A DNA stretch of 31,140 nucleotides from a virus: positions 1 through 31,140 of IMG/VR virus record IMGVR_UViG_3300009170_000017; one strand, written 5' to 3'. Positions 2,060-30,901 of this stretch are shown one piece after another (position 1 is the first letter of the stretch; each line of letters begins with the position of its first letter). The notes beneath the pieces were generated by a model that was not told the DNA's origin, ran no database searches, and was given only the letters and a program-made list of their open reading frames with translations. A program made the translations under genes and the position numbers.

Positions 2060-2570
2060 CATCATCATATTGATGTTTTCCTGCAACCCTGTTAAGAAGG
2101 TGATGCGGGATCCAGTAAGATTTGATGTTGTCGCCAAGGAGGTAATACGCAGAGGTTATTGTAAAGCAGATACAGTTATAGAGTATAAGGATTCTATTGT
2201 TTACAAAGACTCTATAATAGAGAGAATAGAAAAGATTCCGTGTGCGGATTTTGATACCACAATTGGTCGTGCACGGATAAGAGTCAGCTCGGGGGTACTA
2301 ACCTACTCAAGCAGGGACTCGATAATATACAAAACAACTACTAAGACTATAAGAGATTTAGCTATGGAGGAAGTACTCCGTGGTGATATATCAGATAGGG
2401 AAGCTGAGATTAGGTCATTAAAGGATCAGGTTCTCAATTCGCAAATTGAAAAGAAGCAGCTAAAGAAGGACGCCAATTTTTGGAGATGGAGATTCTGGGG
2501 TGCATTGGGATTGATTGTTCTGTTAATGCTGGCTAAGCAAGGAATTAAGGTACTATTAAATAGATTTTAG
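2028..2570 (+). CDS. Putative unimolecular spanin (lipoprotein with C-terminal TM)
   Basis: This encodes 180 residues. The N-terminus is a lipoprotein signal: MKLK, a hydrophobic stretch, then a lipobox-like 'LMFSC' with Cys19 as the modified residue. The middle is charged and helical with short repeats (YKDSIVYKDSII, RDSIIYKTTTKT) and a coiled coil around 120-150. The C-terminus has one TM segment at about 155-175 (WRFWGALGLIVLLMLA). An outer-membrane lipid anchor plus an inner-membrane TM helix in one chain is the layout of u-spanins such as T1 gp11, which fuse the two membranes in the last step of lysis. The start lies inside the holin-like gene; internal Met16 would destroy the signal peptide, so 2028 is preferred. 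The function is inferred from architecture and position. Confidence 0.6.
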   Translation: MKLKYLSVNISIIILMFSCNPVKKVMRDPVRFDVVAKEVIRRGYCKADTVIEYKDSIVYKDSIIERIEKIPCADFDTTIGRARIRVSSGVLTYSSRDSIIYKTTTKTIRDLAMEEVLRGDISDREAEIRSLKDQVLNSQIEKKQLKKDANFWRWRFWGALGLIVLLMLAKQGIKVLLNRF

Positions 2571-2849
2571 ATGGCGCTCTTTAAAGTAATGGCAGCAAAG
2601 GATGGTAGTTCGGCTTGGAAGGCTGAGGGTGTGAACCCAAAGACGGGTCGGGAGATTACACTTAAAGGTGGCGAGGCCAAGCACAGAGGAAAGTGGGGAA
2701 CACAAGGCGGTAAAAGTGAAGGACAGGTAAAGAGTTACTTCGCTAGGCACGCCAAGAACGACAGCCCCAAGGGATATATAAATGATTTAAACTGGCGACT
2801 AGGTTCACGTATTGGCAAAACTGTGAATGTACCCAATAATAGATTCTAA
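2571..2849 (+). CDS. Small basic phage protein, function unknown
   Basis: This encodes 92 residues, Lys/Gly-rich and strongly basic, with segments 'GVNPKTGREITLKGG', 'KWGTQGGKSEGQVKSYFARH' and an end 'SPKGYINDLNWRLGSRIGK'. There is no signal or TM. The pattern (a Gly-Gly-Lys core, then SPK.YIN..NW near the end) resembles small proteins found in several phage groups, for which I know no function; DNA contact or a virion component is possible given the charge. The ATG directly follows the previous TAG, and the next gene starts directly after this stop, so it is in the same operon. Confidence 0.65.
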   Translation: MALFKVMAAKDGSSAWKAEGVNPKTGREITLKGGEAKHRGKWGTQGGKSEGQVKSYFARHAKNDSPKGYINDLNWRLGSRIGKTVNVPNNRF

Positions 2850-3542
2850 ATGAACATTAACGACATCCATAACACTATTCTATTTATACTCGACAAAGAG
2901 CAGGATGGCTTTGTAACACATGGCGAGATAGATGATATGTTGGATAGAGCACAGCTGGTTTTATTTAACCAGTACTACAATAATCCAAAGGTTCCTGCTG
3001 CGGCACAACCTCAATCATATACACAGAACCAGAGGGTTCACGATAGCTTGTCTGCGTTTAAACAACTGCACACATTTACTACGGCTAACACCCCATCAGG
3101 AGTGCTTACTCTTCCGAATGACTTCATGAACTTGTTAAGCTTGTACACCACAGTGTACAACAATACCTTGTCTAGGAATGTATACTCAGCTGTACAGATC
3201 CTACCAGAGGATGAGTTGATTGTTAGATTGGAAAGTCAGGTTATACCAGTAAGTGCTGATGAGCCTATTGGTATTATGAATAAGGAGAATAAAATACAGT
3301 TGTTCCCCGAGCTGACATCTAATGGTGGCGTCTATTACTTAAGGCGTCCTGCTAAGCCAGTGTTCGGATATACTCAAAGTGGAAGGACCATTACTTATAG
3401 TTCAGGTACATCTACGCAACTTGAGTGGAAACAAAATGATTTAATGAATGTTATCGTAATCGCATTACAATACATAGGAATTAACCTTGACGCAGACGGC
3501 GTACTACAGTATGCTGATGCAAAAGATAAAGAAGGACAATGA
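2850..3542 (+). CDS. Probable neck/connector virion protein
   Basis: This encodes 230 residues: an N-terminal helical half (MNINDIHNTILFILDKEQDG), then mixed beta strands (SGVLTLPNDFMNLLSLYT; NKIQLFPE; YYLRRPAKPVFGYTQSG). Helices around a 'LP.DFM.L...' strand segment are typical of phage head-tail connector or tail-tube adaptor proteins, and it opens a row of three such genes upstream of the muzzle-like protein. Homologues in Bacteroidetes podoviruses are usually called structural. It overlaps the next gene by four bases (ATGA). The exact ring position cannot be decided from sequence. Confidence 0.55.
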   Translation: MNINDIHNTILFILDKEQDGFVTHGEIDDMLDRAQLVLFNQYYNNPKVPAAAQPQSYTQNQRVHDSLSAFKQLHTFTTANTPSGVLTLPNDFMNLLSLYTTVYNNTLSRNVYSAVQILPEDELIVRLESQVIPVSADEPIGIMNKENKIQLFPELTSNGGVYYLRRPAKPVFGYTQSGRTITYSSGTSTQLEWKQNDLMNVIVIALQYIGINLDADGVLQYADAKDKEGQ

Positions 3543-4159
3543 CAACTCGTTTTAAAATATCGGAACAAATTCAGAGACTCATCGCAGGAAACCCTACGAT
3601 AGCTACTCGTGTTCACATGAATGACATCAAGCTCTTGGTAGAGCAGGTTGCCAATCAGTTGCTGAAGGCGGACTTCTTTGCTGTTAACATGCCTGAAGGA
3701 GATACCATACCTAATAACTGTATGGTGTTTACTTATGATAACGTGGCTGTCACTACATATAAGACTACAAGAAGTAAGGCTTCTCTCCCGAGCTTTCCAA
3801 TAAGCTTGCCTAGGAATATGGGTGTTCTTCATGTATCAAAGACTGATGCAATCGACGAACCATTTGTTCCCATTCCAACTTCTTTGTTTGGAATAGTAAA
3901 GCCACAGACTTTGCTTGGCGATCTGTCTGGACTAATAGGTTATGAGGTTTCTGGAAGAGATATTATCTTTACCAAGAACCTTCCGGGGCTCGGGGTTAAC
4001 AATGTGTTTATCAGATTGGTTGGTGTAGATCTATCTCAATTAACTGACTATGATCCACTGCCTCTATCTGCAGACATGGAAGGACAGGTAGTTTCTCAGG
4101 TATATAACATTCTTGCTCAAACTCCGCCATCGGACAGGGTACAAAATATTAATGAATGA
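3539..4159 (+). CDS. Probable virion structural protein (neck/ring type)
   Basis: This encodes 206 residues. The N-terminal third is helical (ISEQIQRLIAGNP, then IKLLVEQVANQLLKADFF), followed by beta-rich segments 'SLPSFPISLPRNMGVLHV' and 'VNNVFIRLVGVDLSQL'. This layout, and the setting between two connector-like genes, resembles the ring proteins stacked between portal and tail in crAss-like podoviruses. No enzymatic motif is visible. The start ATG overlaps the previous stop (ATGA), and the end overlaps the next start in the same way, consistent with tightly coupled translation of proteins needed in fixed ratios. Confidence 0.55.
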   Translation: MTTRFKISEQIQRLIAGNPTIATRVHMNDIKLLVEQVANQLLKADFFAVNMPEGDTIPNNCMVFTYDNVAVTTYKTTRSKASLPSFPISLPRNMGVLHVSKTDAIDEPFVPIPTSLFGIVKPQTLLGDLSGLIGYEVSGRDIIFTKNLPGLGVNNVFIRLVGVDLSQLTDYDPLPLSADMEGQVVSQVYNILAQTPPSDRVQNINE

Positions 4160-4914: not shown

Positions 4915-7900
4915 TGATCAATAAGAAAATATTTCTCAACGGAATTAATCAGGATGACAGCTACGCATTGGTTGACAAGGCAGACTATTTGAATGCTGTT
5001 AACATGAGATTTGCTTCTAGTGAAAATGGTAAGGCTGGTGAGCTCTCTAAGATAGAGGGTAATGTTTTGAAGAATGCTAGGATCGGGGGAACATTCACTC
5101 TTCCCGGCGGAACCAATGAATGTATTGGTGCATATGAAGATGTACCCGGAAGAAGAATATTTTATTTTAATAAGAACTCTAATGGTAGTCACGGCATCTA
5201 TTGTTATGATGCTGACACCGATTTAAACTATACTGTATTATTAAGCTCTCAGCTTGTTGGCGGACTTGGATTTAGTTCATTGGTCCATTCGGTAGCGATG
5301 GTTGACAACTTGTTATTCTGGACAGATAATGTAAATCCTCAAAGAAGAATTAATGTTGAGGCTGCAATTAAATTAAATCAGGCTACGTATTCAACTACAG
5401 TTCTTCCGTATGTTCTAGACAAGAACAGCTCGGGGGGATCTGGCAGTACGCATATCGCTAGCTCTGTTATAACACTAATAAGAAATCAACCATGGTCCGC
5501 ATTGACTGTTGTCAAAGTGAATGATGCTGGTTATGTAAATAATTTTATAAAAGATGAAGCGTTTCAGTTTGCCTATAGGTTTGTATATCGTGATGGTGAG
5601 GTTAGTACGTTCTCTCCTTTATCGAAACTAATAAACTATAACACTGCGGCAGAGAATACTGCACCAGTTAAGAATGCTGTTGATATTACTATCCCGCTTG
5701 GTCAGAAGATAGAGCAGGATGTTGTTGGTGTTGAGATTGGAGTAAGGTATTCTCTTGATGGAAATGTATTAATCATGAAGACCTTTACTAGTGGGTTTAC
5801 TACACACAATAGTGGAACTGCTTTGACGTTTAGATTCTATAATGATACTGTTGGCGTAAGTGTAGATAATGCAAGTGCGGTTAAGCCGTTTGACTCAATC
5901 CCCCGAACTTCAAAAACTCTGGAGATTGCTAAGAACAGATTGTTCCTAGGCAATAACTTAGATGGATATGATACGCCAACTACGACGACACTTAGTATTA
6001 GCACAGCAACTGCTGGTGCTGGTTCTGTAAGCGGGCAGTGGTATAAGGTGGTATATAGAAGTGGTGGCGTAACTATTACAAGATATTGGTTGTACATTAT
6101 TGATATCACTACTAACCCCGGGTACTATGTTCCTGCGTCTCAGCCTACACTTCCTATCCCTGCAACCAATGTTGACTATACAACATTAACTTTTGCTGGT
6201 GGAAGCATTAGTACTATTGCTACATACTTAGGTATACCAGTATCTGATGTACTGGCGTTACAATATCAAGGCCCTACTGTGACCATAACTAATGCAACAC
6301 CTAGTTCTATTGTTGGAACTCTTGCATTTAAAAGTGCAGCTACTTATAGGGCTGGTGTGGTTTTCTTTGATGAAGCTGGCAGAAAAAGTGGAGTTGTAAC
6401 TAACGATTCAATTGTAGCTGCTACACCTGATAGAAATTATTCAACGGTATCTTTTGTTACAAACATTAACTGGTCTTTAGATAATAACAATAACCCTGCT
6501 GCGCAGATACCAGATTGGGCAACACATTATTCTGTTGTTAGAACTAAATGCTTAAGAACTTCGTTCTTTGTTCAATTGAGGGCTAACGAGTTGCACTATA
6601 TACCAAAAGATCCTCTTACTGGGGAGTATGGCACATTAAAGCATAACTATAACGCTACTGATTTTGGAATTGCAGTTGAGGTCACAGCGTTATTTAGTAA
6701 TGGCCTTGGATATACTTATCAAGAAGGGGATATTTTAAAGCTTTATGTTTCTGGTGGTGCAACTTATAACCTAGCCGTTAAAGATACATTCGGAGAGTAT
6801 ATAATTGTAGAGCTAATCAACTTAGGTAATCTGTCATCAACAGCTGCTTTATACGAGGTTTATTCTCCATATATAAATAGCACAACAGAACCATACTTTG
6901 AGGTTGGTGATATATATAAGATCGACAACCCGGGATTAAATACTAGAAAGTTTGGTACTATATCTGGATCCTTCCGTGGTGATATATATATATTACAACG
7001 GACTATCCCTTCTACACATTTGTGTGAAGCTATGGCGCCAATTGATATATACTGGAAGAATTGGTTTACTGATATCGGAAGACCTACAATAGTTCTCAGC
7101 TCGGGGGCATCATCAAAGCCTGTAAGCGTATACTATTCTAACGTCATACTACAGGGAACTAAGACTAACGGCCTAAGTACATTTGAGGTTCTTTCTCAAA
7201 CAAACCTACCAACGGAATTAAAGCAGATCAACAGACTTGTTTTAACATCAAAGGTTCAGCTAGAGGGAACTGTTATGCTTGCTGTAGGAGAACAGGAAAC
7301 TGCATCTATATATATTGGCGAAGCTCAGATATTTGATAACTCTGGGAATTCATTTCTTGCTACCACCACTGGTGTAATAGGTAATGTCAATGTTATGAAG
7401 GGCAGCTTTGGTACAATCAATCCTGAGAGTGTTTATAAATGGAAGGGTGAGGTTATGTACTTCGATGCCAACAAGGGATCATGGGTAAGATATAATACCA
7501 ATGGTCTGTTCCCGATATCAGCTAATAAGATGGCAAAGTATTTTAGAAAGGTAGGTCAGGATATACTTGCATACTTTAGGAATCCATCTGAATATAATTA
7601 CGCTAACCCTAACTTTGCTTTAAGGGTATTAGGTGCTGTTGATCCTTACCATGAAGAATACCTGTGTCATGTTCCTAGAATGTACGTCAACACACAGAAT
7701 ACTATTCTTAATGACATGGAGCTAACCTATAACTCTATTGCATTTTCTACACTGAATGGATCTATGGGCGTTAGTGTTCCTAGTATGTCATTTGCTTATG
7801 TCTTAGGTAGTGGTCCTAGTGCGTCACAGTCTTCTAATTATACAGGAGTTAGTTTAGTTATTAATGGAACAATTAATGCTATTGCTCCCCCGAACTTCGA

Positions 7901-8714
7901 GCTATCATTCGATAACTTAAACTTTGCGCCAACTGCAACTATGCCTTATACGGGTATTAATAAGTCTGGCACAATTTACGTAAGGATGAAAGCTGGATTA
8001 GCTGGCGGTTCATACGGACCTAGCAGTGTAATACTATCTGATGGATCTACTGGAAATATCATTAATCTTAGTGGAAGTGTGAGTGTGCCTGTTACTCCGT
8101 TAATAAATACGAGTACGAGTGTGCTCGGGGGATTTACATATGTTTCTGGATCTGGTCCTTCGACTGCTCAATCATTTACAGTATCTGCATCCAACTTAAC
8201 TCCATCATCTGACAACATCACAATTACGCCATCAACAAACTATGAAGTATCTGTGACTTCAGGAACAACTGGATTCAGTAGTTCTCCTGTTACACTTGCT
8301 TATACATCTGGAGGTACTCTTGCAGTTAATACAGTTTTCGTAAGACTCAAAGCTGGATTAACAGCGGCAAGTTACGGTTCAGAAATTATATCTGTATCTG
8401 GAGGTGGTGCTACAACAAAGAACGTAACATGTAGTGGTATTGTTTATTCTGGTGGCACACCTACTATATATGCATATCCTAACAGTGGATATGGGCTATC
8501 TGAATCTTCAGCTTGCTCAATGGCGTCTGCTGGTCTTACAACTCTTACATCATCAAGCGATACAAGTTCGTTTGGTCTGGGATCTGTGGTGTTTATCAAC
8601 CCTGCAGGTACAACCTTGCTGACTGGTTACACACACATATTTATGAATGGCGCCAACTGGGATATTGATCCTACGTATGGTGTTGTTATTTCTTACTCTT
8701 TAACTCAGTGCTAA
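4914..8714 (+). CDS. crAss-like 'stabilization'/muzzle tail protein, N-terminal part plus Ig-like domains
   Basis: This encodes 1266 residues. The opening 'MINKKIFLNGINQDDSYAL' with 'YLNAVNMRF' and 'GKAGELSKIEGN', then repeated beta-strand blocks to about residue 950, matches the beta-propeller tail ('stabilization' or 'muzzle') proteins of crAss-like and related Bacteroidetes podoviruses, which close or gate the tail exit. From about 955 it changes: two Ig-like repeats (~955-1058 and ~1061-1175), each with GSGPS..QS near the start and V.VR.KAGL..(G/A)SYG near the end, then a short C-terminal domain (~1180-1266) with paired Cys-type 'ACS...' and a final Cys. The expected propeller end appears in the next gene instead. 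It carries five copies of the TCGGGGG word plus two in reverse inside its frame. The N-terminal call is good; the split is inference. Confidence 0.65.
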   Translation: MINKKIFLNGINQDDSYALVDKADYLNAVNMRFASSENGKAGELSKIEGNVLKNARIGGTFTLPGGTNECIGAYEDVPGRRIFYFNKNSNGSHGIYCYDADTDLNYTVLLSSQLVGGLGFSSLVHSVAMVDNLLFWTDNVNPQRRINVEAAIKLNQATYSTTVLPYVLDKNSSGGSGSTHIASSVITLIRNQPWSALTVVKVNDAGYVNNFIKDEAFQFAYRFVYRDGEVSTFSPLSKLINYNTAAENTAPVKNAVDITIPLGQKIEQDVVGVEIGVRYSLDGNVLIMKTFTSGFTTHNSGTALTFRFYNDTVGVSVDNASAVKPFDSIPRTSKTLEIAKNRLFLGNNLDGYDTPTTTTLSISTATAGAGSVSGQWYKVVYRSGGVTITRYWLYIIDITTNPGYYVPASQPTLPIPATNVDYTTLTFAGGSISTIATYLGIPVSDVLALQYQGPTVTITNATPSSIVGTLAFKSAATYRAGVVFFDEAGRKSGVVTNDSIVAATPDRNYSTVSFVTNINWSLDNNNNPAAQIPDWATHYSVVRTKCLRTSFFVQLRANELHYIPKDPLTGEYGTLKHNYNATDFGIAVEVTALFSNGLGYTYQEGDILKLYVSGGATYNLAVKDTFGEYIIVELINLGNLSSTAALYEVYSPYINSTTEPYFEVGDIYKIDNPGLNTRKFGTISGSFRGDIYILQRTIPSTHLCEAMAPIDIYWKNWFTDIGRPTIVLSSGASSKPVSVYYSNVILQGTKTNGLSTFEVLSQTNLPTELKQINRLVLTSKVQLEGTVMLAVGEQETASIYIGEAQIFDNSGNSFLATTTGVIGNVNVMKGSFGTINPESVYKWKGEVMYFDANKGSWVRYNTNGLFPISANKMAKYFRKVGQDILAYFRNPSEYNYANPNFALRVLGAVDPYHEEYLCHVPRMYVNTQNTILNDMELTYNSIAFSTLNGSMGVSVPSMSFAYVLGSGPSASQSSNYTGVSLVINGTINAIAPPNFELSFDNLNFAPTATMPYTGINKSGTIYVRMKAGLAGGSYGPSSVILSDGSTGNIINLSGSVSVPVTPLINTSTSVLGGFTYVSGSGPSTAQSFTVSASNLTPSSDNITITPSTNYEVSVTSGTTGFSSSPVTLAYTSGGTLAVNTVFVRLKAGLTAASYGSEIISVSGGGATTKNVTCSGIVYSGGTPTIYAYPNSGYGLSESSACSMASAGLTTLTSSSDTSSFGLGSVVFINPAGTTLLTGYTHIFMNGANWDIDPTYGVVISYSLTQC
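7770..8450 (+). repeat. Two tandem Ig-like domain repeats within the tail protein
   Basis: Repeat 1 is about 7770-8088 and repeat 2 about 8095-8440. Shared landmarks in order are YVLGSGPSASQS / YVSGSGPSTAQS, then FELSFDN / YEVSVTS, then IYVRMKAGLAGGSYG / VFVRLKAGLTAASYG, then a short strand ending in a Gly-Ser/Gly-Ile turn. DNA identity is low, so the duplication is old or each domain was acquired separately. Domains of this kind are frequent in secreted Bacteroidetes surface proteins and phage tail proteins, where they usually bind carbohydrate or act as spacers. Confidence 0.6.
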
Positions 8715-10209: not shown

Positions 10210-10214
10210 TAACT

Positions 10215-11645
10215 ATGGCGATTACAAGAGCATTAGAATTTGATCAGACGCCAAACAGAATGCTGTTTGAAATTGGTGAGCAAGCTCGTCAGCAACAATT
10301 AATGCAACAAAAGTTGCAGCAAGAAAACCAAGAAAAGCAACTTGATGTTTTGCAGCAAATAAATCCTGCTGCCTTATATCCAAAGTTTGAAAAAGAAGTT
10401 GTTGATCAGTCTGTTGGTGAATTAACTGCAGGCATGGCTAACTATATAAAGCAAAATCCAAACGCAAGTTACATTGACCTACAAAATATGGTCAATCAAA
10501 ATCTTGGTCAAATTGCTCGTTGGTCTGCAGGTGTTAAGTCTATGAAAGATAATATAGACAAAACGCTCTCGCTAATGGATTCAAAGTCTCCTTACGACAA
10601 AGGAAGAATCCGTGCATTGTCTATTGATAAAGCACTGTATAACACGGACGAATCTGGAAGAAAGGTCCTAAAGGGTGCAGACGAATTTGATTTTGATTCA
10701 GATATAATTTCTCAGGTAATAGTAGATAATGAAGATAAGCTTATTGATCCTTTTAAGGGAGAACAAGCTATGAATGATGTTGTGAAAGATGCTTCTCTAT
10801 ATACAAAGAATGTAGAACAAACAGTTGAAACCCCTGATGGAAGAAAGACGGTTGTCGTTGGGCAGAAGTCTTCCGTCCCTTTCTTTTTGGAAGCAAAGGA
10901 CGGCGAACTCAGGGTTAAAGAACAGCCTAACGGATATATAGACGAAGGTGTTTTCCAGCAGTTCTATCAAAATCCTGCTATAAGAGCGAACGTAAATGCC
11001 AATGCTAAATCTAATATGAAAAAGATTGGCGTACCTGATTCACCTGAAGCAAATGAATATTTCAAGAGGGCTTACCTAACCACTTGGTTGGAGGGAAATA
11101 AGAAGGGCGTTATTGATATGGTTGATAAAACATTGTATCAAAAACCAACAGCGCCTAGTGGTTCGGGAGCAGCGCCAGCTGACCAAACATATATTAACGC
11201 ATACCAAAAGATAGATGCACTTACTTCTTCTAAGAAGAAAGGATTCGGAACGCCATTCAATGAATTGGATTTGGAAACACAGGATGTGGTATTAAAAATG
11301 GTTAAGCCAGCTCTTGGTGGTGTATCTGTTGGTCAGGCTGATATATATCTAAAGAAAGAAGCTGATGGGACAAATGCTGTTTATACATCTAAGGCATTGA
11401 TGGACGATGATGGTAATGTTGTTAGAAAAGCTAATGATAGAATTGGCGCACTTACAACTACTGGCGTAAACTTAGCGGCTAATAAAGGTGGAGGAGTAAA
11501 AGCAAAGAAGGCTATCATGCAGCAGAAGTCAAGTAAGTATGTTGTTGGTGGTAAAGAATATAGTATGGATGATTTGAAGGGAATGGGATATACTGAAGAT
11601 GACGTTAATCAGGCAATAAAGGCAGGAACAGTTAAACTAAAGTAA
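10215..11645 (+). CDS. Gln-rich internal virion / cargo-like protein
   Basis: This encodes 476 residues. The first 60 are strongly Gln-rich helix (EQARQQQLMQQKLQQENQ), probably coiled coil; the rest is mixed, with long helices and a basic C-terminus (KAIMQQKSSKYVVGGKEYSM, then DDLKGMGYTEDDVNQAIKAG). The last ~40 residues look like a short DNA-binding-type or peptide-capping helical motif, not assignable. Genes of this composition sit between tail and giant cargo genes in many podoviruses and encode ejected proteins. It starts five bases after the previous stop and ends with a one-base overlap (TAATG) with the 3247-residue gene. Confidence 0.5.
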   Translation: MAITRALEFDQTPNRMLFEIGEQARQQQLMQQKLQQENQEKQLDVLQQINPAALYPKFEKEVVDQSVGELTAGMANYIKQNPNASYIDLQNMVNQNLGQIARWSAGVKSMKDNIDKTLSLMDSKSPYDKGRIRALSIDKALYNTDESGRKVLKGADEFDFDSDIISQVIVDNEDKLIDPFKGEQAMNDVVKDASLYTKNVEQTVETPDGRKTVVVGQKSSVPFFLEAKDGELRVKEQPNGYIDEGVFQQFYQNPAIRANVNANAKSNMKKIGVPDSPEANEYFKRAYLTTWLEGNKKGVIDMVDKTLYQKPTAPSGSGAAPADQTYINAYQKIDALTSSKKKGFGTPFNELDLETQDVVLKMVKPALGGVSVGQADIYLKKEADGTNAVYTSKALMDDDGNVVRKANDRIGALTTTGVNLAANKGGGVKAKKAIMQQKSSKYVVGGKEYSMDDLKGMGYTEDDVNQAIKAGTVKLK

Positions 11646-14600
11646 TGCAATTAAACACTGAAGATCCACTAGGAATATTAGGTAAGAGCGATCCACTTGG
11701 AATCTTAAAAAAAAAAGATGGTGGAGTAACACCACCTGCTGGTCCATCACCTGCAGCATTACTACGTTTAGAAGAATTAAAAAAACAACTAAACGAAAAT
11801 CAGCTAAAGCCAAAAAGAACAGAACTTCCAAGAGAAGCAAAGCAAGCTCAAGTAAGAGCTGAGTCTATTAAGACTAAAGAGGAAGTTACTCCAAAGGTAA
11901 CTCCAGTAATGTTTTCTAAAACTCCTACATTCAAAGTAGAGTATCCAGAACAGGATGAGCTAACTGCTAAGGTACTAGGATTTCAGAGTGCTCAACAGAG
12001 AGTGCAGTTCCAAGAAGAAGATCAACAGAAAAAGCAAGAGAATACACAGAAAGCTGCTGATGAATTTTACAACACTAGCACAGGTAAACTTTATTTTAAT
12101 TTTTTTCAACCATTAGCAGAATCAGGTGCTAGGGCTATTGGTAATACTGGCGCTACTATTTCTAGGCTTGCCGGAGAAGACGAACTTGCCGATGCGATAG
12201 TAGATAGGTTTACTCCAGAGAAAAGATACGAAGGTACTATTGCTGGTAATAAACCAACCAAACTACAAGGTGGTTTATTTAATGATGGGAAGGCTAATTA
12301 TTCAAAACTGCCGTCTAGTTTTGTTCGTGGATTAACAGATATGGCTTGGTTGGTTTCGCCAGCTGGTGGTGTAAGCAAAGTCGGTCAGGCTGCTGGCCTT
12401 ACACAAAAGGTAGCAACAAGTACCGGTTTAATTGCAACTTCATTTTTACAGTCTAGGGAAGATTATTATCAGGAAGGTAAGGCTTCTGGATTAAAGGGAG
12501 ATGCCCTTGATAGTTTTGCTACTGGTGCCGCTGGTTTAACATCAGCTCTTGAAGCGGTGTTTCCAAATACTATTGCCATGGGCGGATTCAGATCCAAGAT
12601 GGCTAAAGAATATGCTAAGCAGATAGCTAATGGTATTACTGCTAAGGCAGCATTAAAGGCTGGCGCTAAGGAAGTTTTAAAAGAGGCTTTTGTAAAAGAA
12701 CCTATTCAAGAAGTTACTCAATTGGTTGGAGATAAGGTTGCTAGGACTTTAACTGATATGACCACTGGTGAAGATAATTTTGGTGATCAGTTTGATTGGA
12801 ATAAAAGCAAGGATGAGATTTATGAAACTCTTGTAATGACTCCGTTAATAAGCCTTTTTGCTGCTGGTTCGGGGGCAATTAGAAGCTACACTCCTACTAA
12901 TTATGAGAAGGCTTTATTTTACGATGCTTCTAAAAACCCACAACAGGTAAACCAGTTCTTAGATAATAAGTTCATAGAAAAAGAAATTACCGAAGATCAA
13001 TACAAGCAAGCAAAACAAAAGTTTGCCAACTACAATACCTCTGTAGAGCAAGTTAAGAATCTTGGATACTCTGAAGATCAGACACTGCAGATGGCTTGGG
13101 AGTTATTTTCTGGTAAGGAAAAACTTCCAATGAATCAGTCAGTGATTGCTGATCCAATATTAAAAGATGCGTTAGGTGATGAGATAAAAAAAGATAAAGA
13201 AACAATATCTGAGAATATTAAGTCTATCGGAATGGGTATACCATCTGTTGGATCTGATATCGATGGTAAAGAACTCTCTTTTGTTATTTCTAATATCGGA
13301 GACAAGGGAGCTGAAATAGGTCAAGGATTAGTTGACCAGATTGGCGATGATACATATCGTGTTGAAGAGGTGAGTGTAAAAGATATTTATGATAACAATC
13401 CTGAATTTAGAAGTTATGTAGAGTCTTATAAGAAGGGTTCTATTGATGCAGATGTAATGATGGTTCCTGCTGTGTTGAAAGATAACAGCATTGTTGATGG
13501 AAGAGCTAGGCTTGCAGAGCAATTCTTATCAGGTAAAGACAGAGTTAAAATATTTAAAAACATAAGCAATGCCATTAATCAAAGCCAAGTCCAAGAAGGA
13601 AGAACAGAAGGTGATATCGTCCAACCTCAGGGAATTATACAAGGACAACCAGAAGTCGGGCAAAGAGAAGGGCAACAAGGGCAAACCCAGATCACGCCAG
13701 CAAATGTTAGCGATAGCAATATCGTCGGCGAAGTAGTTGTTCCCGAACTACCTAAAACAGAGGATGTAACTCCTGAACAAAAGAAAGAAGTTATTAAACA
13801 GAAATTTGATTTTATAACTGATCAAGACTTTGTTCAAGAATCTTTCACACAAGAGGAAGATGTAGCATATAGATCTACGTTACCAGATTCTGGATTTGCT
13901 AACGAGCAAGAATTTAAAAACTTTTTAGAGACTGGAGAGTATGCAATGCTAACTGGACAGAACCCAGAAGCTGTCCCTGTTTCTAAAGAGACTAATATAA
14001 AATTAAATGATCGTGCTAAAGAATGGTTATCAAGTAATGGATTAAAATATATTCCAATTTTTGGTAAGTACGGAAATTCAGAGAGATCATTCATGGTTCC
14101 AAACATGACAAAGTCTCAAGCAGTTGAATTTGCAAAAGACCTTAGCCAAGATTCTGTTGCGCACAGCTCAGGTTTAGTATACAAAGACGGATCATTTAAC
14201 CCTAGAGAAGAAGGGGCTGTTATTGATAACTTATTTAATAGCGCAGAAGATAACTTCTCTTCAATAAATATATCTGGTTCGCCCGTTGATTTTAAGATAG
14301 ATTTTGATTTTAAAACTACTATACCTTCCGGTGCTGAGCAGCTAACTCAAGAGCTCATCAAAGAACCGGTCGCTAAAGTTCGAGAGTCACTGAAGTCTGC
14401 CGGCATAACTGTTGATCTTATTGAAGACCCAGCAGAGTTTGATAGGCAAGTTCAGCAGCTCGGGGGACAAGCTGGTATGGAAGGCGTATTCTTAGCAGCA
14501 GACGGCAAGGTACTACTTAATGAGCAAAAGCTCAAAGAGGGAACTAATGCTGGAAGAATTATATTCCACGAAGCTTCTCACCCAATAATAAACATAATTA

Positions 14601-17600: not shown

Positions 17601-20600
17601 CTCCTTTGAGTGCGAAAGAAGAATCAAGGTATTGGGAGTTGGTTAAATTAGATGACATATCTGCCGATGAAATACTAGAATTAAAAACACTTACTAATAA
17701 AAGGGCAAAACAAATTGAAAACAAAAATGGAATTCCAACCGCCCCATACGTAACAAACACCAACGCTTGGGTAAAGCTTGGGCTAAAGGTTGCATTGAAG
17801 GAGGCTGTCAAGCAAGGCGCTGATAGGATTGCTTGGACTACAGGTGAACAACAGATTGAAAGATATGATTTGAGTAAATTTATCAAGAGGATTGATTTTA
17901 TAAGAATGGGAGAAGATAGATATAAATATGAAGCAGCAGGGCTAGATGGCAAAAGAATTGCCTACGATGATGATGGCACTACATCATTGGAAGAGATAGA
18001 GGGTATGTTTGGTAAGGACATAGCAGAAAAAGTAAAATCAGATAAGTACGGGGATTTAAGGTTGCAAGGTGATGGTTTAAAAGTTGGCGGCAAAGGAATG
18101 AAAGCATTCTACGGTGATGCACAGACACCGGGTATTGTAGGTAATGTAGCTAAGGCTTTGGTAAAAGAGTTGACTGGTAAGGAAGGTAACACTGTTGAAA
18201 GCGTTATAAATACAGGTGGTAAACTTCCAAACGAAATGACAGTTGGTGAAATACAAGCGGCTGGAGGCGTTGATGCTGTTAAGGCTTCAAATGCAAATAG
18301 TATACAACCTGCCATCGATATTACCCCCGAACTCAAGGCTTCGGTTCAAGGAGGTATTCCACAGTTCTCTGTTGGCAACCGTCCAGAGAACAATGCAAAC
18401 TTTAAGCTTGGCGCATTCGTAATGCGTAAGAAAGCTGAAGGTGCTACTGATGGTGAGATTGCAATTGCTATCGCCAGTGTAACTGGTATGAAGCCTGAAG
18501 ACATCAAGACCTTAATCGACAACCCAGAGCAGTACATCAGGGATATGTTCCCTAGTATGACTAAGCTACAGCAGGACAACCTTATTCAGAAGGCGAAGAT
18601 CCAGAATATATACAGAGGCAGACAGTTCGGGAAACCAATTGACAAAGCATTCACAGGATTAGAAGTTCCGCAAGAATATGTAGATGAGTACATGCAGAGG
18701 ACTGCTAAGTCTGACAATGCTGTAAAAGAATGGGCTACTGATTTTAAAAACAAATGGTTAGATCCTGCTAAAGGATTACCTGATTGGGTATTGGCTATTA
18801 AAGACTTCGCATCTGGAAGTAAGAATATAGAAATAGCAAGAGCTTCAAAGACTATAGAAAGATTAAAGGATGAAGCCAAGAAAATTGGGTTCACAGATTG
18901 GGATGCATTTGGTAAAGCACTTGTAGTTGCAAAGGATGTTAAGAGATATATTCCTAACGAAGATGGTGTTGTGCCATTTGATGCATACAGAGCAGCAGCT
19001 GGTAAGATGTTTACTACGCCAGATGACATGCTTCCTGCCTTGGTTCCTGATGAAATCAAAGCACTACCTGATGAAATTATTCCTTACGTATATGCTATGC
19101 GTGGGCAGATAGATAACTTAACTAGAGACTTAATTGGTAGTGGTTACGTTACCCCCGAGCAGGCAGTTACTCTTGAGAATAATATTGGTGCTTACGTTAA
19201 TAGATCTTATCGCATGTTCAATGAGATGGGATACAAACCTGAGCCTGAGGTAATGAATGCTGCAATTAAATTCTTGGCGGATGACTATGTAAAGAAACTA
19301 GCAACAGATAAAGTAGGCGCAGTTCCTGATAAGCAGATATATGACGAAGCTGTTGACTTGGCGAAAAAAGATGTTGATGCTATATTAAATAAAAAGAAGA
19401 ACCCATACTTTAACGAAAGTACTGATCGTAGAAATACAGGAATACTTCAAGAGAGACAAAACATATCAGAACCATTACGCAAATTAATGGGAGAATATAC
19501 CGATCCGGGTACTGTGTTCATGATGACTGTAGCAAAACAAGCTGCTCTAAAATCTTCTAGTCAATACATGGGAAAGCTTAGAGAGAATGGTATGGGTACT
19601 TTATTCTTCGAGCAGAACGACCCAAGCAGACCAGCTAGTCACAGTGTACAAATTGCTGCTGCAGGAACAGAGTCTATGAATCCACTTGGCGGATTATACA
19701 CTACTCCAGAAATAGCCGAGGCTATTGAAATGGCGGAGCCTACCTATAACGAGCTTACTCAAGCTTGGATGAAATTGGTTGGTGCAGTAAGATGGGGTAA
19801 GACTGTAGGTTCTGTTGCGACACAGTTTAAAAACTTTGAATCTAACTTAGGATTTGCTGTGCTGAACGGGTACCTTATGTCAGGTCAGAATACTGAATCA
19901 TTTAAAGCGTCTGCTAAATATGTAAAGGGACAGTATTCTAAGGCAGAGATTGACGCCATCACAGACAAGGTGATCAGATTGAATTTGGTTGGTCAAAGTG
20001 TTGGAGCTCGGGAGATAAAGGAAATGTTAGGCAGTGGTGACGTTCATGATATCGCTCTTGACATTGCTCTTAATCCTGATGGCAAGTGGGGTAAGAAAGT
20101 AGCTAAGAAATTAAACGTATTCAAAGAAGCTAATAAGCTTTATAGATTGGGTGATGACTTCTGGAAAGTATATGCATACATGACAGAAAGGGAACAACTA
20201 TCTGATGCTAGGTTCAATGGATCTAAGTACGATGGATTAACTAAAGAACAACAAGAACAGATTGATGTAGAGTCATCTGAAAGAGTTAAGAATACATGGC
20301 CTACTTATGACAGAGTAATTGAAGGCGCCAAGTTTGTAAGCAAGCGTGCTCCTATCTTTGGTAACTTCATTAGCTTCCAAGCTGAATCACTTCGTGTTCT
20401 TACCAATTCAATTAAGATGGCGAAGCAGGACATGGCTGACCCTCAGCTTAGGCACTTAGGTGTTAGAAGAGCTGTAGGTATTGCTGCGTACTTTGGATTA
20501 AGGTCTGCAATTACAATAGGCATAGCTAAGATGGCAGGATTTGCTGCTGCTGGTGTACTTGGTGCTGCGTTTGGTGATGATGAAGAGGAGCGTAATAAGC

Positions 20601-23489: not shown

Positions 23490-23812
23490 TTCATATATAT
23501 TTTAGAGAATCCGTTATCAATAATCTCTTGGTTAATTAATCTTTTATCCACATAGATATCCACAAGTGGGCGACCATACTTATCCAGTTCCCTGCTTATG
23601 ATTGTTACCTCTGCTGGCAAGTTATCTATCAGGTACTGCTTAGCCTCTAGTGCTCTAATCTTTTCTTCTGGGTTTTTGGAATTAAGTTCGGGGGTATTAA
23701 TTCCGTACAATCTGCAATTAGACTTCCAGTGTACAGTAAATCCTAGGTCAATATCTAACCTAACCGTGTCACCGTCAATGATTTTTTCTACCCTTGATTT
23801 GTAAGTATACAT
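23486..23812 (-). CDS. Staphylococcal-nuclease-like (SNase) DNase/RNase
   Basis: This encodes 108 residues, a single SNase domain. Visible features are 'KIIDGDTVRLDIDL' (~10-22), 'CRLYGINTPELNSKN' with Arg34 and Glu42, 'ALEAKQYLIDNLP', 'DKYGRPLVDIYVD' with Arg81, and 'INQEIIDNGFSKIY'. Arg34, Glu42 and Arg81 align with the catalytic Arg35, Glu43 and Arg87 of staphylococcal nuclease; the calcium ligand Asp40 appears to be Asn39 (GINTPE rather than GIDTPE). No secretion signal is seen, so it acts inside the host, perhaps degrading host DNA for nucleotide supply. It carries one TCGGGGG copy at 23688 and shares ATGA overlap with the next gene. Confidence 0.75.
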   Translation of the reverse strand: MYTYKSRVEKIIDGDTVRLDIDLGFTVHWKSNCRLYGINTPELNSKNPEEKIRALEAKQYLIDNLPAEVTIISRELDKYGRPLVDIYVDKRLINQEIIDNGFSKIYMK

Positions 23813-23833: not shown

Positions 23834-23848
23834 ATAAAATTTAATCTT

Positions 23849-24705: not shown

Positions 24706-25025
24706 TTTAATGTAGTTTTAATAAAGTTTTCCAATGCGTCTCTTTGTTCAGAATCCATGTGAGTCATAAGCCTGAGCATCTCATCAAAGAATAAATGGTC
24801 ATTATCTTTTGCTGCCTTTCTCTGCTCGGGGGATATCTTTAATTCTATAGCAGACTTAAGCCACTTTAGCTTAGTAAGAATCGGTGGCATAGTTTCACGG
24901 AATACAATACTCCTAGTACTAAATAGATCTTCAGCATAAGTTAAGCCATTGCATATACTGGCGTGAAGAAGTTCAAATGATTCTGCCTGAGACTTAGTTA
25001 ATTTAATTGCCATCTTGTAGTTCAT
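24702..25025 (-). CDS. Small protein, function unknown
   Basis: This encodes 107 residues and is helical with mixed charge (KLTKSQAESFELLHASICNG ... SPEQRKAAKDNDHLF). There is no TM or known motif. Two starts are possible: 25025 (23-base overlap with the upstream gene) and 25013 (11-base overlap, beginning MAIKLTKSQ). The upstream one has the longer overlap and cannot be excluded. It lies in the nucleotide-metabolism part of the minus operon, between an unknown gene and the metallophosphatase. Confidence 0.55.
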   Translation of the reverse strand: MNYKMAIKLTKSQAESFELLHASICNGLTYAEDLFSTRSIVFRETMPPILTKLKWLKSAIELKISPEQRKAAKDNDHLFFDEMLRLMTHMDSEQRDALENFIKTTLK

Positions 25026-25245: not shown

Positions 25246-25864
25246 ATAATAATTGTTTTACTTTGTTATCTAAATCTTCCAGACTACCATCGTTTACAAT
25301 ACGATAATCAAAATCATAGTGATCTAACTCAGTCTCTGACTTGTGATTATTAATGGGACCAACTCCGGTCCTGTCAATCCTAACCACAATACCATCACGC
25401 TCTTTGATGGCGGATGCCTCATTAAGAAACCTAGTGTCGGTGATTATCCATTTTGGATAGGTTGTACGGTCTGTATCTATATCATACATTCCTATATATT
25501 CGGCCATCAAAGCATTCACCCATGTGTTCTCATGTAGTCCATGTCGAACAGCATCAGTGCCTAGCTTCTGTAGAAACTCCCGAACCGTCATAGCTCGCAG
25601 CTCGGGGGCTGCGTTATACTTAGGCTCAACGTCTGTACCAGTTACATGTAGCTTATAAGACCATACAAACCAATCCATGCTAAGATCAGCAGCCTTGAAG
25701 TCTTGATCCTCAAAGTCAGTAACAGGATGACCAGTAAGAATACTAGCCACCTGCTTAAGCTTATCAGAAAACTTTCTAATCTGAAAATTGTTTTGATATT
25801 TTTTAATCATCTTAGCTATCTCGTCCTTTCCAGTTGTAGCATAACCATTTAGACCTATGATCAT
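25229..25864 (-). CDS. Deoxynucleoside monophosphate kinase-like protein
   Basis: This encodes 211 residues. The N-terminal P-loop 'IGLNGYATTGKDEIAKMI' (Gly4, Gly12, Lys13, Asp14) with the GKD variant, the middle 'FLQKLGTDAVRHGLHENTW', and 'WIITDTRFLNEASA' (Asp142, Arg144) are the standard signature of phage dNMP kinases of the T4 gene 1 type. They phosphorylate dNMPs, helping feed replication. The neighbours (nuclease, metallophosphatase, primase-helicase) fit a nucleotide-recycling and replication operon. It overlaps the upstream gene by four bases (ATGA at 25861-25864). Confidence 0.75.
   Translation of the reverse strand: MIIGLNGYATTGKDEIAKMIKKYQNNFQIRKFSDKLKQVASILTGHPVTDFEDQDFKAADLSMDWFVWSYKLHVTGTDVEPKYNAAPELRAMTVREFLQKLGTDAVRHGLHENTWVNALMAEYIGMYDIDTDRTTYPKWIITDTRFLNEASAIKERDGIVVRIDRTGVGPINNHKSETELDHYDFDYRIVNDGSLEDLDNKVKQLLYVIDK
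25596..25613 (-). repeat. Dispersed-motif copy inside an inverted repeat
   Basis: CGCAGC TCGGGG GCTGCG: the GYTCGGGGG word at 25600-25608 sits inside a perfect 6-base inverted repeat, with TCGGGG as loop, within the dNMP-kinase gene. A similar but weaker arrangement occurs at 14456-14475 (CAGCT ... AGCTG around the word). Most copies lack flanking arms, so the dyad is probably incidental or a local elaboration. The sequence could form a hairpin in single-stranded DNA or RNA. Confidence 0.4.
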
Positions 25865-26130: not shown

Positions 26131-26143
26131 AATGATAAAATTT

Positions 26144-26181
26144 AGGGACGCCCGTGCACCTGCAGCGAGACGCCCCCTAGG
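26144..26181. other. GC-rich intergenic island with 22-bp-spaced direct repeats
   Basis: A 38-base segment of about 74% GC in an otherwise AT-rich genome, lying between minus-strand genes (26130 and 26184), one of the few true gaps in the minus block. It holds two copies of GACGCCC (26147-26153 and 26169-26175) exactly 22 bases apart, about two helical turns, with palindromes GTGCAC (26154-26159) and CTGCAG (26160-26165) between them. TAGGG at the left and CCCTA at the right could form a weak stem, followed on minus by a T-rich stretch. It could be an operator, terminator or replication-related site; the sequence alone does not choose. Confidence 0.35.
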
Positions 26182-26183
26182 TT

Positions 26184-26396: not shown

Positions 26397-26536
26397 TTTT
26401 TGAGATTTATTGTTATGAAATAATTTAAGAAGTAAAATCCGATTTCCAGCTTTTTATCCGCTGGGTCGTACATAAGTGTAATGATAGGTAAGATCATATA
26501 GACCTCTACTGTTCCTGTTTCAATTGAGAGTTTCAT
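26393..26536 (-). CDS. Tiny protein (47 aa) between nuclease and SSB-tip genes
   Basis: It starts MKLSIETGTVEVYMILPI, ends FLNYFITINLKK, and is hydrophobic with aromatic residues. ATGA overlaps at both ends (26533-26536 with the nuclease gene, 26393-26396 with the next gene) make a random ORF unlikely. It could be a small membrane-associated or beta-sheet protein. Function unknown. Confidence 0.5.
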   Translation of the reverse strand: MKLSIETGTVEVYMILPIITLMYDPADKKLEIGFYFLNYFITINLKK

Positions 26537-26874
26537 GGTTTTATAATTTGATTAGTAATTAACATCTGTAGTAATTCTTTAAAGTCTTCAATAGACATGG
26601 CGACTATCGTTCCCTTTCTGTTTCTTTTATGGAATACAACATTGTAGTTGGAATCCTTTGGCATCTTGGCGAGGACATCATGTATACTCCCGAGCTTCTC
26701 TACTGCCTTTGCTTGTACTGAGAATGGATCGGTATAGCACAGGTCAATACCTTGATCGTCTTTGTTCTTAGACTCAGACCTAGAGCTTACTGCCTTGGTC
26801 CATCCCAATTCTCTGAACCAGTCTCTGATGACAAGTTCGTAGTGATGTCCTTTGACTCTTGGATTAATCGCCAT
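26533..26874 (-). CDS. PD-(D/E)XK nuclease, Holliday-resolvase-like
   Basis: This encodes 113 residues. 'GHHYELVIRDWFRELGW' (Glu13), 'GIDLCYTDPFSVQAKAVEK' (Asp44, then Gln54-Ala-Lys56) has the order E - D - (E/Q)xK of the PD-(D/E)XK nuclease fold; the QxK variant occurs in archaeal Hjc-type and several phage resolvases. Its size fits a small Holliday-junction resolvase. It would trim or resolve recombination intermediates made by the YqaJ exonuclease system in the same operon. Its start lies inside the 26787-27080 gene (about 88-base overlap) and its end overlaps the 47-aa gene. Confidence 0.55.
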   Translation of the reverse strand: MAINPRVKGHHYELVIRDWFRELGWTKAVSSRSESKNKDDQGIDLCYTDPFSVQAKAVEKLGSIHDVLAKMPKDSNYNVVFHKRNRKGTIVAMSIEDFKELLQMLITNQIIKP

Positions 26875-27080: not shown

Positions 27081-27093
27081 CTTCCATTGCTCC

Positions 27094-28824
27094 TTAAAAA
27101 CGATCTGCAAGTGAGGCGAAACCTTGGATTTCCCTAGAGCTGATCGGCTGACCGATGAACTTTGTTTTGTCCGTGCCATTGTTAATCATTTCTGCAGCAT
27201 TGTATCTGCTATTGTTAATGTTAAAATTAAAGAACCCTGTACCAACCTGACCAGAGTATCTGAACCTAACCTTCCACCTGTATACCTCTGTCTGTTTGGT
27301 TTCCATGTTCCTGTATACAGTCATGCCGTTATCAGGAAGGTTAAACCAGTGAGAGCTATCTCCAACATCATACCCATTAGGAACCTTGTAAATGCCATTC
27401 TTAACTTCAGTCATCTTCTTTGGGTGTGCCACTAGAAATACATGAACACCATAGTTCCTAGCAAACCTTGACACATCATTCATCATGTTCTTAATCTGAT
27501 GATGGCGTGTATCTGTCTGGCTGCTCATACTCTTTTCTACAGTACTCATGTTATCAATGACCATAATATTTATACCAAACCTCTTGACCATATACTTAGC
27601 CTTTTCTATAATACCCTCAATGGACAGGTCATTATCACTAAGCCTATAGTATTTAAAATGATCATTAAGAAATGGTATTAGATTATCTATCTCTGGTTTA
27701 GAGATCCTAGCACCATAATCTGAATTAAAAAAGCTTTTGCCTGATGCTATCTGAAGCATGTCTGTAAGAGCGAATGCAGTGTTGGCTTCCTCTGCTGAGT
27801 ATATGAATGACTTAAGGCCATGCATTTCTGCAAGCTTGTAGATTACATTCTTAATAAAGGTTGACTTACCATGGCCGGGGATACCTGTTACCAGTGTAAC
27901 CTGACCGGGATGCCAAATAAAATCTCCGTACACTTCATATCCTGCAGGAGCTCCGCCTTCATACAGACTAAATATCTCTGCACTTACACTTGATGCATCA
28001 TCAATACCTTCAACTGGGTATGGCGAAGCTGAGTTAAGGCATTCTAATAACTTGTCCTTACCTTCCCTAACTAGTGTATCGTTGGCGTCCTTGTGTGGGA
28101 ATTCAACTATGTAGCAATACTCCTTACCAAATCTTCTAGCCAGTTCACTTCTAAGAGACTGGCCAGCCTCATCCATGTCACATGCTAGGTATATCTTCTT
28201 GTCTTGGAATAGGTGAATATAATCCTCTAACCAATCAAGTTTCTGATTGCCTTTGCTTGCGCCGTTAGGTACAGAGATAGCCGACTTGATGCCCGCCTCA
28301 TAGAAAGACATAGTATCAATCTCTCCCTCTGTGATAACAACACAATCGGAATCATTATCAAGAACGATATCAATGCCGTAAGGGCCAAGCCTAGCGCCAC
28401 TAACAAGCTTAAAGTTTTTGTCACGATCTCTAAACTTAATATTGAAAACTTCTTCATTTTGAATGTAGTTAAAGTGAATGGTTCTGGTTTCTGCATTTAC
28501 CTGAGGCATGTAGTCTACACCTTCTGATACCTTGTATCTTAGAAGAGTTTGATTAGAAATCCCCCGAGCTGCAAACCAATCAATAACTTGTTGAGATAGT
28601 TTCTTAAGTTCGGATGGTGGTTTTACATATTCTTTCTTTGGTTTTTCAACAGACCCCTTGTATCCACAGTTATGGCACTGCCATATACCACGATCCACAT
28701 CAACAGACAGACAAGGATCTGTCTTGTTTTTTCTTGTAGGGGAACACTGAGGGCATGGAACTTTCACGTTGCCGTGTTGGTTTTCCCTTACGTTAATTCC
28801 CAATAATCTGAGTTGCTGAATCAT
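27094..28824 (-). CDS. T7-gp4-type bifunctional DNA primase-helicase
   Basis: This encodes 576 residues. The N-terminal zinc ribbon has Cys24, Cys27, Cys50, Cys53 (VPCPQCS ... WQCHNCGYKG). TOPRIM primase: 'CVVITEGEIDTMSFYEAG' (Glu166) and 'IYLACDMDEAGQS' (Asp216, Asp218). RecA-type helicase: Walker A 'GIPGHGKSTF' (314-323), Walker B-like 'INIMVIDNMSTVE' (~420-430), and a C-terminal 'HVFLVAHPKKM' segment. It makes primers and unwinds the fork as a hexamer. It begins inside the winged-helix gene (32-base overlap). The best-supported call in the replication block; the reverse motif copies at 28561 and 27029 are in or near it. Confidence 0.9.
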   Translation of the reverse strand: MIQQLRLLGINVRENQHGNVKVPCPQCSPTRKNKTDPCLSVDVDRGIWQCHNCGYKGSVEKPKKEYVKPPSELKKLSQQVIDWFAARGISNQTLLRYKVSEGVDYMPQVNAETRTIHFNYIQNEEVFNIKFRDRDKNFKLVSGARLGPYGIDIVLDNDSDCVVITEGEIDTMSFYEAGIKSAISVPNGASKGNQKLDWLEDYIHLFQDKKIYLACDMDEAGQSLRSELARRFGKEYCYIVEFPHKDANDTLVREGKDKLLECLNSASPYPVEGIDDASSVSAEIFSLYEGGAPAGYEVYGDFIWHPGQVTLVTGIPGHGKSTFIKNVIYKLAEMHGLKSFIYSAEEANTAFALTDMLQIASGKSFFNSDYGARISKPEIDNLIPFLNDHFKYYRLSDNDLSIEGIIEKAKYMVKRFGINIMVIDNMSTVEKSMSSQTDTRHHQIKNMMNDVSRFARNYGVHVFLVAHPKKMTEVKNGIYKVPNGYDVGDSSHWFNLPDNGMTVYRNMETKQTEVYRWKVRFRYSGQVGTGFFNFNINNSRYNAAEMINNGTDKTKFIGQPISSREIQGFASLADRF

Positions 28825-29377: not shown

Positions 29378-29763
29378 ATGTTAATGTACTCTTCAATTTT
29401 TAAATATGGATTGCGTTTTGTTTTACTTCTAATTGCGTTTAGGCATAGACCTACCTTCACATAGAACTTTGTGATTGCATCCTGATAAGATTTAAGAACA
29501 CCAATAGACTCTCTCTTCTTACCTTCACGATAGTACTCTCTAAACTGCATAAGCTTGTGACGATATGAATCGTAACCGCAATCTAAGTAATTCATTATTG
29601 ATGCAGAATCGAATCCGTACATGTCAGCTAGACCAACGAATATTGTTCTAGCCAGTTCCTTATTACCTTCGTAATCTTCATTCGTCTGTAAAGGTTTTAA
29701 TCCTTCCTTGTCCCAAATAAACTGAGGCCTCATTACTTCTTCTAGCTCCTTAAGTTTGATCAT
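29374..29763 (-). CDS. Small helical protein, possible DnaA domain IV-like DNA binder
   Basis: This encodes 129 helical residues. The central segment 'ARTIFVGLADMYGFDSASIM', followed by a Tyr/Arg/His/Lys-rich helix (DSYRHKLMQFREY), has the order of a DnaA C-terminal HTH (A..LY....... I...L....S.R.H), while the end is basic with a short 'KTKRNPYLKIEEY'. This is only a resemblance. Placed directly upstream of the winged-helix/primase-helicase genes, a role in replication initiation would make sense. It overlaps both flanking genes by four bases (ATGA). Confidence 0.4.
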   Translation of the reverse strand: MIKLKELEEVMRPQFIWDKEGLKPLQTNEDYEGNKELARTIFVGLADMYGFDSASIMNYLDCGYDSYRHKLMQFREYYREGKKRESIGVLKSYQDAITKFYVKVGLCLNAIRSKTKRNPYLKIEEYINI

Positions 29764-29918
29764 AATTTATCCATTTCAATTTGTATCCAATCCTGTAATT
29801 GTATTAACACCTCTAGTCTTCTATCGCTTTCTAGGGTAAAGTATTCAGCGTATACTTTAAACACCTGAAACCTTAGCTGCCCTGTCTCGTCTACATAGTA
29901 ACTAAATTCTTCGCTCAT
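29760..29918 (-). CDS. Tiny protein (52 aa), function unknown
   Basis: It begins MSEEFSYYVDETGQLRFQV and ends LQDWIQIEMDKL; acidic, with a helical second half (LESDRRLEVLIQLQDWIQ). ATGA junctions at both ends (29915-29918 and 29760-29763) place it in the operon between the exonuclease and the DnaA-like gene. No motif is recognised. Confidence 0.5.
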   Translation of the reverse strand: MSEEFSYYVDETGQLRFQVFKVYAEYFTLESDRRLEVLIQLQDWIQIEMDKL

Positions 29919-30901
29919 AGCTTAACACTAAATGATTTTCTCCAAGTTATCTTTCCGTTAGGCAGCATCATTGTGGTTGCGCCTTCCTTTTCCATTACCT
30001 GCTTTAGTCTATTCTGAAACAGCTGCTTCTCAGATTCAAGAACCTTGATACCTGCGTTTAGCTTTGTATAGCTAAGTGCCCACTGGCCACATTCGTCTGT
30101 GCCTTGGATGGTAACCTCTTCCTCTCTAGCCTTATGCTTTTCAGAAACAAAATCATTGAATGCTTGGCTATTGTCAGCGTCCGGTTCATAATGGGAAGCG
30201 ATCTGAATTTGTTCATTCACATCATTTGTCTTTTCAATCTCTTTCTTAGCCGCCATTACACGGTTATGAAACTCTTCAGCAGCAAGCAGGATTGAATCCT
30301 GTATACCCCTGTTCGCTTCGAACGTAACACATCCAAGCTCTCTTCCATCCTTCAGATAAACTATTTCTCCGTAGCTCCATTCAGTTACCAGTAAGTAATG
30401 CTGTAGCTGAACGAGATAGCTCGGGGGAATCCCAGCTTCATAGGAATCGGCAGAGTATCCTGAGATAGTTTTCACTTCCAAGACACCTGCCTTCCTCCCA
30501 TGAATCGGATGTTTGGTGATCTTGCCATCGATATTGGCAAACAGGGTTGGGAACTTCCTGTTCTCAATTATGGCACGAACCTTTTTATAAGACTTGATCT
30601 TATTATTGTTTAATGTATTCTCTACCCATCCTTCATCAGTGCCATCATAATACTGCCAGCACTTTGCTACATAATCTTCCAGTTGTTTTCCGTGAAGCAT
30701 AATCCCGTTCATCTTATTTGGAAGACGGCTGATGCCAACAGACTGATAGAATAGATTGATAGGGGACTTGTACTTATTCAATCCAAGCAGTGTACCTGCA
30801 TCAGATCCTCCAACCATACCCCTGTCTACAAAAGAATGGCGAAGATTTTGCCATTCAGACTCGCTTAGCTTGGCTGTCGGTGTTAGTTTTAAGTGCTTCA
30901 T
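29915..30901 (-). CDS. YqaJ-type viral recombinase / lambda-exonuclease-family nuclease
   Basis: This encodes 328 residues. The signature blocks are in order: 'VGGSDAGTLLGLNKYKSPIN' (~31-49), 'MLHGKQLEDYVAK' (Glu75), 'FANIDGKI' (Asp125), 'VLEVKTISGYSADSY' (Glu142-Val-Lys144) and 'PPSYLVQLQHYLLVT' (Gln165, Gln167). It would degrade one strand of DNA ends as the nuclease half of a phage recombination system with an annealing partner, which might be the partial gene upstream (30898 onwards). A C-terminal helical tail of ~100 residues follows. The motif copy at 30419-30427 lies within it. The call is firm; the exact activity is inferred. Confidence 0.85.
   Translation of the reverse strand: MKHLKLTPTAKLSESEWQNLRHSFVDRGMVGGSDAGTLLGLNKYKSPINLFYQSVGISRLPNKMNGIMLHGKQLEDYVAKCWQYYDGTDEGWVENTLNNNKIKSYKKVRAIIENRKFPTLFANIDGKITKHPIHGRKAGVLEVKTISGYSADSYEAGIPPSYLVQLQHYLLVTEWSYGEIVYLKDGRELGCVTFEANRGIQDSILLAAEEFHNRVMAAKKEIEKTNDVNEQIQIASHYEPDADNSQAFNDFVSEKHKAREEEVTIQGTDECGQWALSYTKLNAGIKVLESEKQLFQNRLKQVMEKEGATTMMLPNGKITWRKSFSVKL

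Follow-up and report, generated by a model that had tools for sequence, protein, structure and literature searches.

The closest described systems are the phage nick motifs. Those of the Pseudomonas phages tf and Rembedalsseter (TACTRTGMC and WACTRTGAC, respectively) are asymmetric 9-bp words that occur on one strand only, are enriched in 61 related phages sharing little nucleotide identity, and lie within genes in 88% of cases, mostly on the coding strand; about 50 years of work have not settled what nick motifs do (PMC3517423, PMC11780129). Chi, an oriented G-rich word of the host genome thought to act in recombination, is over-represented about 2–5 fold in lambdoid phages, at 0.2 per kb (PMC3784561). 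The stoperators of cluster A mycobacteriophages, 20–30 asymmetric, phage-specific duplex sites of 13–14 bp dispersed in the genome, follow the direction of transcription (PMC6550527). Finally, the gp4 primase of T7 reads the trinucleotide 5'-GTC-3' (PMC9198812).

The window analysed here is the whole 31,140-nt stretch of the IMG/VR virus record IMGVR_UViG_3300009170_000017. The initial annotation had reported 17 copies of GYTCGGGGG and 21 of TCGGGGG; recounting gave identical numbers, with TCGGGGG found 13 times on the plus and 8 times on the minus strand. Its expectation of about 0.1 and 0.9 copies was reproduced by dinucleotide shuffles (0.07 and 0.88, respectively), while its GC estimate of 38% is corrected to 39.8%. 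TCGGGGG is the top over-represented 7-mer of the window. When synonymous codons were permuted inside each gene, the 17 GYTCGGGGG copies in genes compared with a mean of 0.30 and a maximum of 3 in 100 such codon-preserving shuffles of the window. The word as first defined is real but the form is somewhat wider, since GYTCGGGAG is also in use, bringing the GYTCGGGRG total in the window to 22. In the window alone, the strand ratio of these sites (13:9, p = 0.52) is not significantly biased. In a full-text literature search, none of the matches listed describes GTTCGGGGG as a motif of phages. The sites in the window are:

2287..2295, plus strand, site GCTCGGGGG, sense in ORF 2028-2570
3785..3793, minus strand, site GCTCGGGAG
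5428..5436, plus strand, site GCTCGGGGG, within the gene of a 1266-aa virion protein
5900..5908, minus strand, site GTTCGGGGG
7099..7107, plus strand, site GCTCGGGGG
7887..7895, minus strand, site GTTCGGGGG
8123..8131, plus strand, site GCTCGGGGG
11161..11169, plus strand, site GTTCGGGAG
12867..12875, plus strand, site GTTCGGGGG, within a 3247-aa ORF
14458..14466, plus strand, site GCTCGGGGG
15000..15008, minus strand, site GTTCGGGGG
16870..16878, plus strand, site GCTCGGGGG
18324..18332, minus strand, site GTTCGGGGG
19152..19160, minus strand, site GCTCGGGGG
20006..20014, plus strand, site GCTCGGGAG
23686..23694, plus strand, site GTTCGGGGG, antisense in a minus-strand gene
24824..24832, plus strand, site GCTCGGGGG, antisense in a minus-strand gene
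25577..25585, minus strand, site GTTCGGGAG
25600..25608, plus strand, site GCTCGGGGG, antisense in a minus-strand gene
26687..26695, minus strand, site GCTCGGGAG
28561..28569, minus strand, site GCTCGGGGG, in sense orientation within the primase gene and left of the polarity switch
30419..30427, plus strand, site GCTCGGGGG, in antisense orientation within the YqaJ gene (at PPSY, codons CCC CCG AGC) and right of the polarity switch

The 3247-aa ORF spans window positions 11645-21388; its first 1085 aa, the sole part searched, had no PHROG match.

Relatives were found in IMG/VR with the window's primase and a virion protein as queries. About 30 phage contigs whose primase is at least 56% identical to that of the window carry the word, which is absent from contigs with a primase at most 43% identical. 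All contigs of this clade bear it, over a GC range of 0.36–0.53, and the sisters are without it; one 4-kb clade contig has the GYTCGGGAG form only. Across 16 genomes of the clade, the density was 0.24–0.72 per kb and the excess over the codon-preserving shuffle 11–57 fold. Nearly all core genes respect the border between bearers and non-bearers and TerL ignores it, so the word is a mark of the clade rather than of one gene. TerL identity is 51% among bearers and 49–54% between bearers and non-bearers. A packaging contact, one of the initial suggestions, is disfavoured where the terminase is taken as the reader, given that TerL and the word do not go together. A restriction or modification site, also suggested there, would be a further candidate.

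The neutral loss of copies in relatives, named at the outset as counting against a selected site, gives a mixed picture: about 70% of aligned sites are gone in a given relative, yet the sites are conserved three times as often as controls (30% for the word against 10% for control GC-rich 9-mers, summed over 15 non-independent genome pairs). Despite this turnover, every relative retains many copies and the density is kept. With about 30% of sites kept in place, function seems to hinge less on where individual copies lie than on their density and polarity.

In the relatives, the motif reads cAGYTCGGG(G/A)G. In its 9-base core, G-Y-T-C-G-G-G-(G/A)-G, TCGGG is near-invariant, base 2 favours a pyrimidine and base 8 is G or A, changes being tolerated solely at bases 2 and 8 and partly at base 9. 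Over 666 sites, C and A are favoured directly 5' of the core, together with G at −4 and AT-rich stretches about 10 bp out on both sides; the flank preferences reach about 13 bp. Sense and antisense copies in coding sequence share them, which points to a protein that reads DNA as a duplex and speaks against an effect at the coding or RNA level.

Selection acts on the word as DNA, as had been proposed; the codon shuffle, the use of all frames, the conservation relative to controls, the recruitment of rare codons and the flanks all support this. Copies occur in the clade in all codon frames, on both strands, and in intergenic terminators and RNA elements. Rare codons are drawn in: the sites account for 11% of GGG and 18% of CGG codons, compared with 0.1% of CCT or CCA. 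In YqaJ, the conserved residues PP[SN]Y are coded by most bearers as CCC CCG ARC, while the non-bearing sisters (PPYY) use CCT CCT or CCT CCA. Codon usage and protein repeats are ruled out as the cause by the codon shuffles and the use of all frames. An RNA-level signal was also rejected, there being 55 antisense copies in plus-strand genes of 16 genomes against about 0.4–3 per genome in the shuffle, both orientations together.

Copies of the word also make up arms of hairpins that resemble intrinsic terminators, and of RNA elements between genes. Hairpins with the word as stem, for example CCCCCGAGCTCGGGGG followed by T's, were seen in G012 near 31694, and in G422 and G430 near the late/early junction. 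In addition, gaps between small early genes of relatives hold tRNA-minihelix-like RNA elements, composed of a 7-bp acceptor-like stem, a D-loop-like linker containing ATGGT and a 6-bp stem with a TTCGANT T-loop. Examples are:

G010 14032, minus strand, minihelix-like element
G010 12300, minus strand, minihelix-like element
G433 53349, minus strand, minihelix-like element
G013 2401, plus strand, minihelix-like element
G001 427, plus strand, minihelix-like element
G444 48287, minus strand, minihelix-like element in a non-bearing genome

An alignment of 23 copies has standard pairs in each of its 299 pair cells, and 12 of the 13 pairs have changed on both sides. None was found in the window, and the five stretches tested matched no Rfam family at gathering score. 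The element is perhaps an RNase P/Z processing site or a mobile cassette border. Many of these elements bear the word at the 5' arm; an origin of the word in intergenic RNA elements was rejected, as the elements hold some copies but also exist without it.

The word is strand-polar, with a ratio of 357:117 over 16 genomes that is clear only in the longer relatives. Over 20 genomes, the ratio is 88:9 for intergenic copies and 235:57 for copies in genes on the major strand. Three genes of the window bear on what follows:

27094..28824, minus strand, primase-helicase (Toprim and DnaB-like, T7-gp4-like), candidate reader and clade marker
29915..30901, minus strand, YqaJ-type exonuclease gene, inside which site polarity flips in relatives
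26533..26874, minus strand, small protein whose match to an Mrr-like nuclease is weak and falls below the cutoff, a candidate only

With genomes aligned at the primase, polarity flips near the recombinase and primase genes: copies point away from a spot that lies some 1.4 kb upstream of the primase and within the YqaJ gene. Restricting the count to minus-strand genes, which controls for coding strand, gave 39 minus to 12 plus left of the switch and 10 minus to 45 plus right of it. Two conserved YqaJ sites are partly fixed by the YqaJ protein sequence; with that gene excluded, the effect stays in nine divergent genomes (p = 0.0017), smaller p-values being optimistic because the switch point was picked from a scan and the genomes are related. 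Relative to transcription, the word is sense in late (221:55) and left-early genes (39:12), and antisense in right-early genes (45:10) and their gaps (48:1). Outside the switched region, copies of the major orientation have a mean spacing of about 1.7–3.9 kb, and very short gaps are rarer among them than under an exponential distribution.

We tentatively take cAGYTCGGG(G/A)G to be an asymmetric duplex-DNA site read by a phage-encoded protein, most likely for strand-specific nicking, a reading that we hold at somewhat short of even confidence. The phage would keep the word at a density and polarity, and not at fixed positions; a phage nickase would cut one strand at each copy, as at the nick words of T5-, phiKMV- and tf-like phages; and this strand-specific processing may be coupled to the direction in which the DNA is replicated or recombined, as the flip at the recombination and primase genes suggests. 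A nick-type site, already raised in the initial annotation, is the closest match to a described kind: like the tf, phiKMV-like and T5 motifs, the word is an asymmetric 9-bp sequence, strand-biased, mostly in genes and commoner on the coding strand, and it is enriched throughout a clade of diverged phages and not clearly in the phages sampled outside it. The likeness fails on single-strand confinement, as the 357:117 bias is not exclusive and roughly one copy in four is found on the opposite strand (3:1, as against one strand only). The word differs from these nick motifs also in sequence and phage group, in being known from sequence alone, in copy number (up to 44, as against about 9–14) and in a polarity that flips at replication and recombination genes. 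To our knowledge, such switching with genome position is not known for nick motifs, and it counts against the nick reading. Also against it, no nickase was recognised in the clade, and the reader may, although less probably, be host-encoded. We do not class the word as a nick motif, because its copies are not strictly placed on one strand and the case comes from assembled genomes.

Quite possibly, although on balance we doubt it, the word is instead a replication or recombination polarity site that is read by the phage's own machinery and marks direction. It could then be a Chi-like signal of the phage's own, a long (~9-nt) priming site for the T7-gp4-like primase, or a DnaA-box-like site for the DnaA-C-like protein. 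Both the flip, which persists without the YqaJ gene, and the scarcity of short gaps favour such a role, as does the presence of primase, YqaJ and the DnaA-C-like protein throughout the clade. Were the switch spot the origin, the lagging-strand template would be the strand that carries the word; the spot is a putative origin only, placed by the polarity of the word. With their duplex-like character, the flanks speak against a reader of single-stranded DNA alone. We know of no phage-encoded Chi system, which counts against the Chi-like variant. As for the primase variant, the clade conserves a primase-helicase related to T7 gp4, but known primase sites, such as that of T7 gp4 (PMC9198812), are far shorter than the word, and a 9-nt site would be new.

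Near universal in the clade are the primase, YqaJ, the weak Mrr-like small protein (present in all 19 bearers holding its region) and a stand-alone DnaA-C-like DNA-binding protein. The latter (G012 33734-34075, G013 5705-6043 and homologs) is present in every long bearer and also in five sisters without the word; because of this, and of its variable recognition helix, it is a candidate only, and the DnaA-box variant suffers accordingly. Gene-by-gene association singled out no reader, since almost the whole set of core genes divides bearers from non-bearers as a block. The integrase was rejected as reader, having no match in some bearers, for example G013 (43 sites). In that genome, a PhoH-like protein (L051:2829-4490) is interrupted by a Hint/homing-endonuclease (intein-like) insert.

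The virion proteins of the window are related to those of Bacteroidota phages. A prophage search of genome contigs with the primase found no host; a TerL search of genome contigs returned distant relatives only, in a Flavobacteriales, a Prolixibacteraceae and a Cloacimonadota MAG. From the related phages and the MAG loci, a Bacteroidota host is inferred for the clade. In a sample of 396 Bacteroidota genomes, counts of the word stayed near those of the reversed-word control and none approached the phage density. Two extended 14-mers fetched 164 viral stretches, and those clearly enriched were clade members; an unrelated 45-kb contig of about 51% GC held 6 copies, a weak excess. As far as the sampled genomes go, the Bacteroidota counts and the restriction of clear enrichment to the clade make a phage-encoded reader likely.

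The same counts make a host Chi, the first option of the initial annotation, improbable. The word would then halt a host RecBCD/AddAB-type nuclease and so protect or recombine phage DNA; it is indeed an oriented, spaced G-rich 8–9-mer, and phages can over-represent host Chi (PMC3784561). However, the word is far more enriched than lambdoid Chi, is not enriched in the tested Bacteroidota, whereas Chi is shared with the host genome, and belongs to a clade that encodes its own YqaJ exonuclease and Rad52-type protein. Three sisters without the clade word (G444, G445 and G446) carry GGGGTRACC, strongly oriented and not enriched in 297 Bacteroidota genomes; we do not take it as support because its copies fall for the most part in a single codon frame and its excess over the codon shuffle is no more than about 4–6 fold.

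A stoperator-like operator, at which a prophage repressor would bind dispersed sites and block transcription, is very improbable: most genomes have an integrase, about half a Cro/CI-type HTH protein, and copy number and asymmetry resemble the dozens of stoperator sites of cluster A phages, but unlike these (PMC6550527) the word ignores the direction of transcription, being sense in late and left-early genes and antisense in right-early ones, and it is present without the HTH protein of G012 in the long bearers G013, G427, G431, G433 and G434, the first of these lacking an integrase match as well.

The best reading is that of a clade-specific polar phage word, with nicking as its most likely action and a role in replication or recombination as the main rival. 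Clade-specific oriented phage words are rarely recognised, nick motifs being the best known. The word analysed here adds a strong example from another phage group, and the flip of its polarity beside the recombination and primase genes links such a word to replication or recombination. If true, the primase variant would be the first long (~9-nt) recognition sequence of a phage primase.
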